64,000 bases of DNA from Brevundimonas mediterranea (GTDB taxonomy: Bacteria; Pseudomonadota; Alphaproteobacteria; Caulobacterales; Caulobacteraceae): assembly GCF_014196125.1 (NCBI RefSeq), contig NZ_JACIDA010000001.1:1612001-1676000 (forward strand). Reading direction: 5' to 3'. Shown here piece after piece: positions 7,456 to 50,299 of this stretch. Position 1 is the first letter of the stretch. The number at the start of each line of letters is the position of its first letter. A program made the translations under genes and the position numbers. The notes under the pieces are model-generated. The model saw only the letters and a list, made by a program, of their open reading frames with translations, made no database searches and had not been told where the DNA came from.

Positions 7456-7583
7456 CCGCTCATCCCGGCGAAAGCCGGGACCCAGTGCTTTCGCTCGGCG
7501 CCGCCGTTGGACCACAATCCTGACACGCGCCACAAGGCCGCGCATCCAAAGAACTGGGTCCCGGCTTTCGCCGGGATGAGCGG
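7456..7583. repeat. Inverted pair of palindromic repeats, family A (REPIN-like, no gene inside)
   Basis: Two copies of a 30-base repeat lie at 7456-7485 and, inverted, at 7554-7583, separated by 68 bases. Each begins CCGCTCAT on its outer side and contains the perfect hairpin CCCGGC-GAAA-GCCGGG followed by ACCCAG. The same pair geometry flanks the GIY-YIG gene at 48766-49159. The 68-base core holds no open frame. An inverted pair of short palindromes is the REPIN arrangement known in other bacteria. Confidence 0.9.
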
Positions 7584-47635: not shown

Positions 47636-48754
47636 ATGCAACTGACCATCGAACGATCCGCGCTCCTTAAGGCCCTGGGCCATGTGCAGAGCGTCGTCGA
47701 ACGCCGAAACACGATCCCGATCCTGTCCAACGTCCTGCTCAGCGCGGGCCGGGACCGGTTGGCCTTCGCGGCCACCGATCTGGACATGGAGATGGTGGAC
47801 GAGGCCGAGGCGACGGTGAACGTCGAGGGCCAGATCACCGCCCCCGCCCACACCCTGTACGAAATCGTGCGCAAGCTGCCGGAAGGCGCCGAGGTGTCGC
47901 TGCTCTATTCGGGCGACGATCCCCGCCTGGTGGTCTCGGCCGGCCGGTCGCGCTTCAATCTGCCGGTCCTGCCGGCGGGCGACTTCCCGATCATGTCCAC
48001 CGACAGCGCCGGCGCCTCCTATGTCATGCCCAAGGAAGACCTGGCGCGGCTGATCGACAAGACCCGGTTCGCCGTCTCGACCGAAGAGACCCGCTATTAT
48101 CTGAACGGCCTGTATCTGCACACGGTGGCCGAGGCCGGCGTCGCCCTGCTGCGCGCCGTGGCCACCGACGGCCACCGCCTGGCCCTGGCCGAGACCCCGG
48201 CGCCCGAAGGCGCGGCCGGCGGCCCCGGCGTCATCGTGCCGCGCAAGACCATCGATCAGGTCCGCCGCCTGCTGGACGACGCCGCCGGCCCGGTCGAGAT
48301 CACTGTCTCGGCCCAGAAGATCCGCTTCCAGATGGGCGAGGCGTCCCTGACGTCCAAGGTCATCGACGGCGCCTTCCCCGACTATCTGCGCGTCATTCCC
48401 AAGGGCAATGACAAACAGGCCGACATCGACAACGCCCTGTTCGCCAAGGCCGTCGACCGCGTCGCCACCATCTCGGCGGAAAAGAGCCGGTCGGTGAAAC
48501 TGGCCTTCGACAACGACCGGGTGAAGCTGACCGTGCGCAACATGGAAGCGGGCCAGGCCGAGGAAGAGGTCGAAATCGGCTATTCCGACGAGCCCTTCGA
48601 AATCGGCTTCAACGCCCGCTACCTGCTGGACGTCGCCGGCCAGATCACCGGCGAAAACGCCGCCTTCCGCTTCGCCGACCCGGCCTCGCCGACTCTCGTG
48701 CTCGATCCGGGCGATCCGGGCGTGCAGTATGTGCTGATGCCGCTGCGGGTGTAG
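47636..48754 (+). CDS. dnaN: DNA polymerase III beta sliding clamp
   Basis: The 372-residue protein has three clamp domains: MQLTIERSALLKALGHVQSV, VVERRNTIPILSNVLLSAG, FAVSTEETRYYLNGLYLHTV, ATDGHRLALAETP and the C-terminal FNARYLLDVAGQI with YVLMPLRV. It is the processivity clamp of the replicase. It lies 142 bases after dnaA. Downstream, recF is separated by a repeat-flanked GIY-YIG gene. Confidence 0.97.
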   Translation: MQLTIERSALLKALGHVQSVVERRNTIPILSNVLLSAGRDRLAFAATDLDMEMVDEAEATVNVEGQITAPAHTLYEIVRKLPEGAEVSLLYSGDDPRLVVSAGRSRFNLPVLPAGDFPIMSTDSAGASYVMPKEDLARLIDKTRFAVSTEETRYYLNGLYLHTVAEAGVALLRAVATDGHRLALAETPAPEGAAGGPGVIVPRKTIDQVRRLLDDAAGPVEITVSAQKIRFQMGEASLTSKVIDGAFPDYLRVIPKGNDKQADIDNALFAKAVDRVATISAEKSRSVKLAFDNDRVKLTVRNMEAGQAEEEVEIGYSDEPFEIGFNARYLLDVAGQITGENAAFRFADPASPTLVLDPGDPGVQYVLMPLRV

Positions 48755-48765
48755 GCGAGAGATTT

Positions 48766-48795
48766 CCGCTCATCCCGGCGAAAGCCGGGACCCAG
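48766..48795. repeat. Palindromic repeat family A, left copy of the GIY-YIG pair
   Basis: This 30-base copy begins CCGCTCATCC and contains the perfect hairpin CCCGGC-GAAA-GCCGGG followed by ACCCAG. It is identical to 7456-7485 and lies 11 bases after the dnaN stop. Confidence 0.95.
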
Positions 48796-48822
48796 TTCTT
48801 TCGTTCGTACCGGAGACTGGCC

Positions 48823-49110
48823 TTGGCGTTCTTCACCTACATCATCGCCAGCCGCCGAAACGGCACGGTCTACACCGGCTCGACCGACGATCTGATCAAG
48901 CGAGTAGCGGAGCATCGCGACAAGTTACGTCCGGGCTTTACACGCCGATATGGCGTCGCGCTCCTGGTCTGGTACGAGGTGCACGAAACGCGTCATGCGG
49001 CCTTCGTGCGCGAACGACAGATCAAGGAATGGAAACGGATCTGGAAGCTGGAACTGATCGAGCGCAAGAGCCCGGCATGGGCGGATTTGTTTCCGACGCT
49101 GCTCGGTTAG
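48823..49110 (+). CDS. GIY-YIG nuclease-domain protein inside an inverted repeat pair
   Basis: The 95-residue protein is a single GIY-YIG domain of the UvrC-N/UPF0213 type: [20 protein letters not shown] with the TYI/VYTG pair, the Arg in [20 protein letters not shown], and the Glu/Arg-rich helix [20 protein letters not shown]. There is no accessory DNA-binding domain. The start is TTG at 48823, seven bases after CGGAG. It is flanked by inverted family A repeats (48766-48795, 49130-49159) and separates dnaN from recF. Nicking of the repeat hairpin is possible; no activity is proven for this type. Confidence 0.88.
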
Positions 49111-49129
49111 CTCGTGCCGAGCGAAAGGA

Positions 49130-49159
49130 CTGGGTCCCGGCTTTCGCCGGGATGAGCGG
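49130..49159. repeat. Palindromic repeat family A, right copy of the GIY-YIG pair
   Basis: This is the inverted partner of 48766-48795: CTGGGT, the hairpin CCCGGC-TTTC-GCCGGG, then ATGAGCGG. It ends six bases before the recF start codon and supplies part of the recF ribosome-binding region. Confidence 0.95.
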
Positions 49160-49165
49160 AAGAAC

Positions 49166-50299
49166 TTGATCACCTCCCTCACCCTCACCGACTTCCGCTC
49201 CTATGCGAGCGCACGGCTGGACCTAGCCTCCGGCCCGGTGGTGCTTCACGGCCCGAACGGGGCGGGCAAGACCAATCTGCTGGAGGCCGTCAGCCTGCTG
49301 ACCCCCGGCAAGGGGCTGCGGGGCGCGACCGCCGCCGAGATGGGGCGGCGCGAGCCCGGCGAGGCGGTGGGCCGCGCGTGGGCCGTCATGGTCGAACTGG
49401 ACGACGAGACGCGGCTGGGCACCGGGGTCCAGACGGCGGGCGCGGCGCGGCGCATTGTCCGTATCGACGGCGAGACGGCCCAGCCGGGGCGGCTGCTGGA
49501 CTATCTGCGGCCCGTCTGGGCGACGCCCGAGCAAGACCGACTGTTCTCCGACGCGCGGGCGGAGCGGCTAAAATTCTTTGACCGGCTGGTCTTCGCCGCC
49601 GATCCCGACCATGCCGCCGCCGTCTCCGCCTACGAAAAGGCCCTGCGCGAACGCTTGCGGCTGCTGAACGAGGCACAGGACGGGCGCGAGGCCGACCCCG
49701 TCTGGCTGGACGCCCTGGAGGCCCGGCTGGGCGAAGCCGGCGCCCGCGCGGCCCTGGCCCGGGTCGCCGCCCTGCACGCGCTCCAGGCCGCCATCGACGC
49801 CCGCCGCGACCGCCCCTTCCCCCAGGCCGACCTGGGGCTGGACGGCCCCGCCGAACAGATGGCCGAGGCCGGCGCCGAGGAAGACGAGATCGCCGCCGCC
49901 GTCCGCGATGGCCTGGCCAAGGCGCGCGCCCGCGACGGCGCCGCCGGCCGGTCCCTGTTCGGCCCGCACCGCACCGACCTGACCGCCCTTCACCGCGAGA
50001 AGAACCGGCCCGCCGCCGAGGGGTCGTCCGGCGAGCAGAAGGCCCTGGTCCTGAACCTGATCCTGGCCCAGATCAGCCGCCTCGCGCACCATGACGCCGC
50101 CGGGGCCGCCCGCCCCGTCCTGCTGCTGGACGAGGCCCCCGCCCACCTGGACGAAGCCCGCCGCGCCGCCCTGTTCGACGAGATCGTCGCCCTGGACCTG
50201 CAAGCCTTCATGACCGGCACCGAACGCAGCCTGTTCGCCGGCCTGGACGGCCGCGCCCAGTTCGTCCGCGTCGCCGGCGGGGCCTTAGAAAACGACTAG
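49166..50299 (+). CDS. recF: DNA replication/repair protein RecF
   Basis: The 377-residue SMC-like ATPase has Walker [19 protein letters not shown] near residue 30, the family block [20 protein letters not shown], the signature region [20 protein letters not shown] near 288 and Walker [21 protein letters not shown] near 325. It loads or stabilises RecA at gaps and stalled forks. The start is TTG at 49166-49168, after GGAAG at the edge of the repeat; no ATG gives the family N-terminus ([17 protein letters not shown]). Confidence 0.95.

Follow-up and report, generated by a model that had tools for sequence, protein, structure and literature searches.

A GIY-YIG nuclease gene bracketed by REP hairpins between dnaN and recF of Brevundimonas mediterranea: the probable master locus of a REP/REPIN system

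The space between dnaN and recF in Brevundimonas mediterranea is occupied by a unit of about 400 nt in which a gene for a small GIY-YIG protein is enclosed by two opposed REP hairpins, and this unit is probably the resident master locus of a REP/REPIN system in which a GIY-YIG nuclease takes the place of the RAYT transposase. The pairing of the gene with the repeat is well supported, whereas cleavage, mobilisation and conversion of the repeats by the enzyme are steps that we infer. The cognate gene-repeat system is undescribed as far as the literature searches reached: titles and the beginnings of abstracts yielded no paper linking GIY-YIG genes with REPs, bioRxiv and most subscription journals being outside the scope of the search.

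The unit and its protein

The window (the whole stretch of 64,000 nt that was analysed) contains two forward-strand reading frames which we take to be dnaN (47636-48754), the upstream neighbour and the junction anchor in the genome comparison, and recF (49166-50299), the downstream neighbour. Between them lie two identical 30-nt repeats, CCGCTCATCCCGGC-GAAA-GCCGGGACCCAG, at 48766-48795 on the forward strand and 49130-49159 on the reverse strand, with hairpins at 48774-48789 (CCCGGC-GAAA-GCCGGG) and 49136-49151 respectively. Each repeat is the core of a longer inverted-repeat arm of 44 nt (48764-48807, forward; 49118-49161, reverse), the two arms being 95% complementary, and between the arms is a single-domain GIY-YIG gene of 95 aa with a TTG start (48823-49110, forward). 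The preliminary description had claimed opposed hairpin repeats around such a gene, spaced 11 bases after dnaN and 6 bases before recF; the coordinates and the PF01541 match agree with the former, and the end of dnaN at 48754 and the start of recF at 49166 confirm the latter. On a reading of the sequence, the repeat may also supply start signals of recF.

The product matches PF01541 (GIY-YIG) with an E-value of 7e-15, and Y6, Y17, R27, H31 and E64, which we take to be the catalytic residues of the GIY-YIG active site, are invariant in 11 diverse alignment rows, so that membership of the superfamily is indicated by both the domain and the conserved active-site residues. The predicted structure (pLDDT 86.5) is a single short domain with fold matches to UPF0213, Slx1, I-TevI and UvrC; among known proteins the UPF0213/YhbQ-like single-domain GIY-YIG entries (PDB 1zg2, 1ywl) give the best match both by sequence (E 0.0035) and by Foldseek (9.9e-05), but they are about 27% identical in sequence and are themselves uncharacterised proteins. 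The genome contains one further PF01541 match, within a 648-codon frame that we assign to UvrC. The GIY-YIG gene at dnaN-recF is under purifying selection (median dN/dS 0.15 over 119 pairs of the 16 GIY genes at this junction). No homologue was found at E 1e-5 among 50,697 phage records, and plasmid matches came from 35 records, each below 60% identity, some of these being megaplasmids or chromosome-sized. Assignment as a group I intron endonuclease was rejected, its sole support being a weak NCBIfam match far under the cut-off.

Two features of related proteins were observed in passing. The right REP encodes the C-terminus of some GIY-YIG proteins that run into it (loci L042, L044, L056, L057 and L037), and one subclade (YWVYIVASGPCGW..), which has perhaps been freed from REPs, is found mostly without flanking inverted repeats (L174, L153, L165, L169, L154, L145, L063 and L061).

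Association and matching of the gene and its repeats

Allowing up to two mismatches, the window contains four copies of the hairpin core where 0.34 would be expected, and none of 100 shuffles reaches four. The genome as a whole has 17 exact cores and no occurrence of the reversed control pattern. Seven head-to-head pairs account for 14 of these cores, the other three being single. Six of the pairs contain no ORF and have an offset of 95-96 bp (one, a REPIN-like inverted pair of the same dispersed type, lies in the window at 7456-7583 and is site 3 of the comparison below), and the seventh, with an offset of 362 bp, surrounds the GIY-YIG ORF. The ends of the REPINs and of the GIY unit are alike over the whole REP and for a few bases past it. 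On our reading the six REPINs would be internally asymmetric, with CTTTC or CTGTC at one end and CTTTGG at the other, and the GIY unit, unlike them, seems to have CTTTCG at both ends. Single-strand folding of one REPIN gives -56.6 kcal/mol, with a z-score of -10.4.

Of 81 genomes sampled in the genus, 80 have PF01541 matches, 72 have the repeat with no more than two mismatches, and none has the reversed control pattern. An association of repeat copies with GIY-YIG genes, which had been set beforehand as a test, is borne out in both samples. The flanks are joined by an inverted repeat in 59 of 79 genus GIY genes (a part of all GIY genes, after removal of duplicates; shuffles 0) and in 82 of 114 genes of a wider, partly overlapping sample, assembled by scanning public genomes at the protein level and adding a phylum sample (shuffles 0/114, random windows of the same loci 3/158), leaving 20 and 32 genes, respectively, without such a repeat. 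Under an explicit, somewhat loose REP definition, 30 of the 82 GIY genes of the named loci are enclosed by a head-to-head REP pair and 62 have a REP within 300 nt; among the 748 other genes in these loci the corresponding counts are 5 and 101.

The type of the repeat follows the protein as well: repeat type changes 24 times on the protein tree, compared to a mean of 55.2 after shuffling, and none of 200 shuffles was as low. At dnaN-recF the flanks switch as a pair between lineages (CCCGGC-GAAA, CCCGGC-GGAC, CCCCGGC-GGAC). In most of the genomes compared, with exceptions, the dispersed repeats have the same loop as the repeats beside the resident GIY gene. In counts that include the copies flanking the gene, the ten genomes with GGAC flanks at the GIY gene contain 17 (G001), 24 (G007), 17 (G022), 22 (G025), 60 (G030), 30 (G044), 45 (G050), 33 (G058), 34 (G069) and 19 (G074) GGAC cores, with one GAAA core in G030 and none in the other nine, and the seven with GAAA flanks contain 17 (G000), 9 (G032), 12 (G012), 3 (G063), 2 (G024), 9 (G027) and 53 (G040) GAAA cores and no GGAC cores. 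The two cores of G024 are merely its own gene flanks, the GIY gene of G040 is not placed beside recF, and G036, which has 40 GAAA cores and a related gene without a flank pair, was left out. This contrast may represent one evolutionary split, and the p-value of 0.0017 for the contrast in repeat abundance ignores the relatedness of the genomes.

Within the CCCCGC type, the loop of the flanks recurs in 17 of 17 cores of G025 (GGAG), in four of the five cores of G005 (GGAG), in 10 of 12 cores of G064 (GAAA) and in 17 of 28 cores of G009 (GAAG), where 7 are GAAA and 4 other. G001, with 48 GGAG and 8 GGAA among 56 cores, has two GIY genes, one with GGAA flanks and one, which contains stops, with GGAG flanks. 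Mixed loops are found in G038 both at the flanks and elsewhere, and the GCAC loop of G013 occurs only beside its GIY gene. Repeats are also present where no cognate gene was among the genes fetched: GGAC repeats in G068 (41), G054 (10) and G042 (8), and GAAA repeats in G002 (37), G045 (35), G031 (25), G026 (19), G057 (17), G070 (17), G062 (12), G008 (11), G064 (11), G009 (10) and G019 (9). Gene loss could account for these orphan populations, and because they are numerous the repeats are not strictly dependent on the gene at present.

Non-autonomous elements often carry passengers, and this habit, together with the existence of orphan repeat populations, favours an account in which the gene plays no REP role and simply rides in a repeat pair whose movement is due to an unrelated transposase or whose origin lies in replication slippage. 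We regard this account as improbable, because members of one gene family turn up within REPs of different types in many lineages, and because the dispersed repeats match the flanks of the gene. It is further weakened by the absence of the Y1/RAYT domain (PF01797) from 79 of the 81 genus genomes in a search confined to the Y1 family. The present genome is among the 79, and mobilisation by a Y1 (RAYT/IS200) enzyme was accordingly rejected for it within the scope of that search.

History of the unit and of other REPIN sites

Among 70 dnaN-recF loci read, both genes are visible in 59, and these resolved junctions comprise 16 with a GIY gene, 16 of 29-149 nt and 27 with other DNA. The comparison of junctions, run as a check on the preliminary description, thus finds the gene to be missing there in many relatives. 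The REP-flanked unit of that description stands, but a recent insertion no longer looks like the simplest account: the distances between GIY genes correlate with those between recF genes (Mantel r 0.49, 0/2000 permutations, n=15), the GIY genes at the junction form one protein clade, and two genomes (G043 and G028) have at least 100 nt in common with GIY-bearing gaps, with no intact gene there and almost no repeats. In G047 a right REP survives next to recF, and in G008 perhaps the last bases of one. Because of the single clade, the recF-like distances, the low dN/dS and the remnants in relatives, a long residence with losses is indicated, and we conclude that the GIY gene is old at dnaN-recF and has been lost in some lineages.

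This history also bears on the proposal that the protein is a free-standing homing endonuclease, cutting dnaN-recF junctions that lack the gene and spreading to them by homing, for which the GIY-YIG fold in common with I-TevI and the patchy presence at fixed sites can be cited. The distance correlation and the single clade speak against it, as do the single short domain of the protein and the repeats, which are part of the unit and are also found at many sites unrelated to this one, and we consider homing very improbable indeed.

A stronger competitor, still unlikely in our judgement, is that a housekeeping nuclease clears REP cruciforms or hairpins during replication and so limits the harm they do, the REPs spreading by other means and those at the flanks possibly regulating the gene. 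The fold match to Slx1, a structure-specific nuclease of branched DNA, agrees with such a role, as do the strong folding of the REPIN and the long residence under purifying selection. What the proposal leaves unexplained is the head-to-head bracketing of the gene by the same repeats and the agreement in loop between the flanks and the dispersed copies; moreover, the gene is absent at most resolved junctions, with no apparent replacement at the site.

Junctions of other kinds were also noted. At seven loci (L074, L077, L082, L084, L094, L115 and L140) the place of the GIY gene is taken by a small ORF, about 155-180 aa long, in a recurring layout, and a second repeat family, whose inverted arms (AGTGGCGAGTGG...CCACTCGCCACT) are built of tandem GAGTGGC units, is found in other Brevundimonas genomes, both at dnaN-recF junctions (L078, L079, L086, L102, L125, L128 and L131) and at site 2 (L298, L303, L311 and L319).

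At other sites the REPINs of relatives differ in presence and in type. Among 15 relatives at site 1, four are empty, with 11-12 nt between the anchors, two have the same REPIN, one of these without the right REP, four have a CCTCGGG-type REPIN and five have a whole GIY element of the CCCCGC type. At site 3, in those relatives in which both REPs are present and the spacer is 79-97% identical to that of the present genome, the stems are CCCGGC in G008 and G009 and CCCCGC-GAAA in G055, G019, G064, G027 and, with one mismatch, G061; G002 has CCCCGC-GAAG at both ends and G032 a half-changed right REP, and in other relatives the REPIN has been lost. The two REPs that G032 has at site 5 share one private change, GCGGAG. 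From the stem patterns at sites 3 and 5 it follows that some REPINs stay put while their stems change in concert, which can also arise from template switching within the palindrome, without the GIY enzyme. It was further observed that sites 1-5 hold different repeat families by species (CCCGGC, CCCCGC, CCTCGGG, long CCGGG and GAGTGGC types), as if these intergenic sites were shared landing places for repeat families.

Relation to known REP systems and proposed mechanism

The accessible text of a 2013 survey (Di Nocera et al., PMC3733652) treats the CGTC REPs, which are mostly alphaproteobacterial, as one of its two REP superfamilies, reports the variants TGTC and CCTC of the unpaired tag at one end, and leaves the making and upkeep of these repeats open, no transposase gene having been found with them; the term "GIY-YIG" does not occur in that text, nor in the accessible main text of a 2025 REP survey (PMC12306157). 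The repeat described here, ATCCCGGC-GAAA-GCCGGGAC-CCA, resembles the CGTC REPs in its 4-nt loop, a stem beginning AT, its CCA tail and its occurrence in multiple copies, mostly as head-to-head dimers. It differs in its tag, GCTC, which is two bases from CGTC and one from the CCTC variant, and in its stem, in which seven of eight pairs form and the outermost, A-C, is unpaired, where CGTC family 1 has an 8-bp stem. The exact CGTC tag is present in the flanks of many relatives' GIY genes. CGTC-like flanks extend to several classes of Pseudomonadota and to records titled Deltaproteobacteria, Zixibacteria, Elusimicrobia and Nitrospira, a spread that needs caution, as many of the records are metagenome bins. 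Azospirillum lipoferum 4B carries an annotated GIY-YIG gene, with CGTC REPs, in another conserved operon, between sufB and sufC (L363, 1489-1782), and Novosphingobium aromaticivorans pNL2 provides a further annotated example of a GIY-YIG gene with REPs; both species appear in the 2013 survey, the available part of which also equates the dRS3 repeats of Neisseria with CGTC-1. In a third annotated example, a Neisseria gonorrhoeae record, the GIY-YIG gene is set among dRS3-like repeats, which form clustered arrays there, in contrast to the single pair found here.

The REPIN/RAYT systems, or REPtrons, as presented in the accessible parts of PMC3116915, PMC3686654 and PMC8266576, likewise combine a REP-flanked gene, in single copy per type, with dispersed inverted REP pairs, and in the present genome, too, the enzyme gene is flanked by the same REPs that are dispersed. 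In REPtrons the abundance and type of the REPs follow the cognate gene; here the type does so in most genomes compared, with orphan repeat populations as exceptions. They differ in employing an HUH tyrosine transposase and GTAG REPs, where a GIY-YIG nuclease and CGTC-like REPs are found here; the 95-aa protein, a PF01541 GIY-YIG protein, has no Y1/HUH transposase domain. The GIY-REP system is therefore no RAYT, though it seems to operate in the manner of one. The likeness to REP/RAYT elements with a different nuclease, first suggested in the preliminary description, is strongly supported by the GIY-REP association, and neither of the two outcomes named beforehand as refuting it was observed.

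If the unit is the master locus, the GIY-YIG protein would recognise and cut either the REP hairpin or the cruciform that a whole REPIN can form. Once the break is repaired or captured, REPINs could at a low frequency depart from a site or arrive at one, and one REP could be copied from another; the stems and loops of the two REPs in a REPIN, and of the genome's REPs, would then change in concert. The master-locus reading is supported by the occurrence of empty, REPIN and GIY-element alleles at site 1, by the concerted stem changes in orthologous REPINs, and by the purifying selection, invariant active-site residues and fold matches of the protein. Against it count the lack of any sign of recent movement of the GIY unit itself, the orphan repeat populations, the GIY genes without a flank repeat and the GCAC loop confined to the gene of G013. 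A broader generalization, which we advance tentatively as having a little less than an even chance of being correct, is that in several phyla the enzymes missing for the CGTC REP superfamily, and for the dRS3-like repeats within it, are small GIY-YIG nucleases, and that these cut hairpins or cruciforms and thereby spread and convert REPINs.

The finding names a small, testable candidate enzyme for the CGTC REPs, which the accessible text of PMC3733652 left without a transposase. The natural loop pairs GAAA, GGAC, GGAG and GAAG provide material for tests of recognition, and the orthologous REPINs with switched stems constitute a record of change in place. The finding also points to an origin of the REP/REPIN way of life with two nucleases that are unrelated to each other. 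If the broader generalization is true, it would amount to a system of DNA mobility and concerted evolution built on GIY-YIG chemistry, with a unit of about 400 nt.
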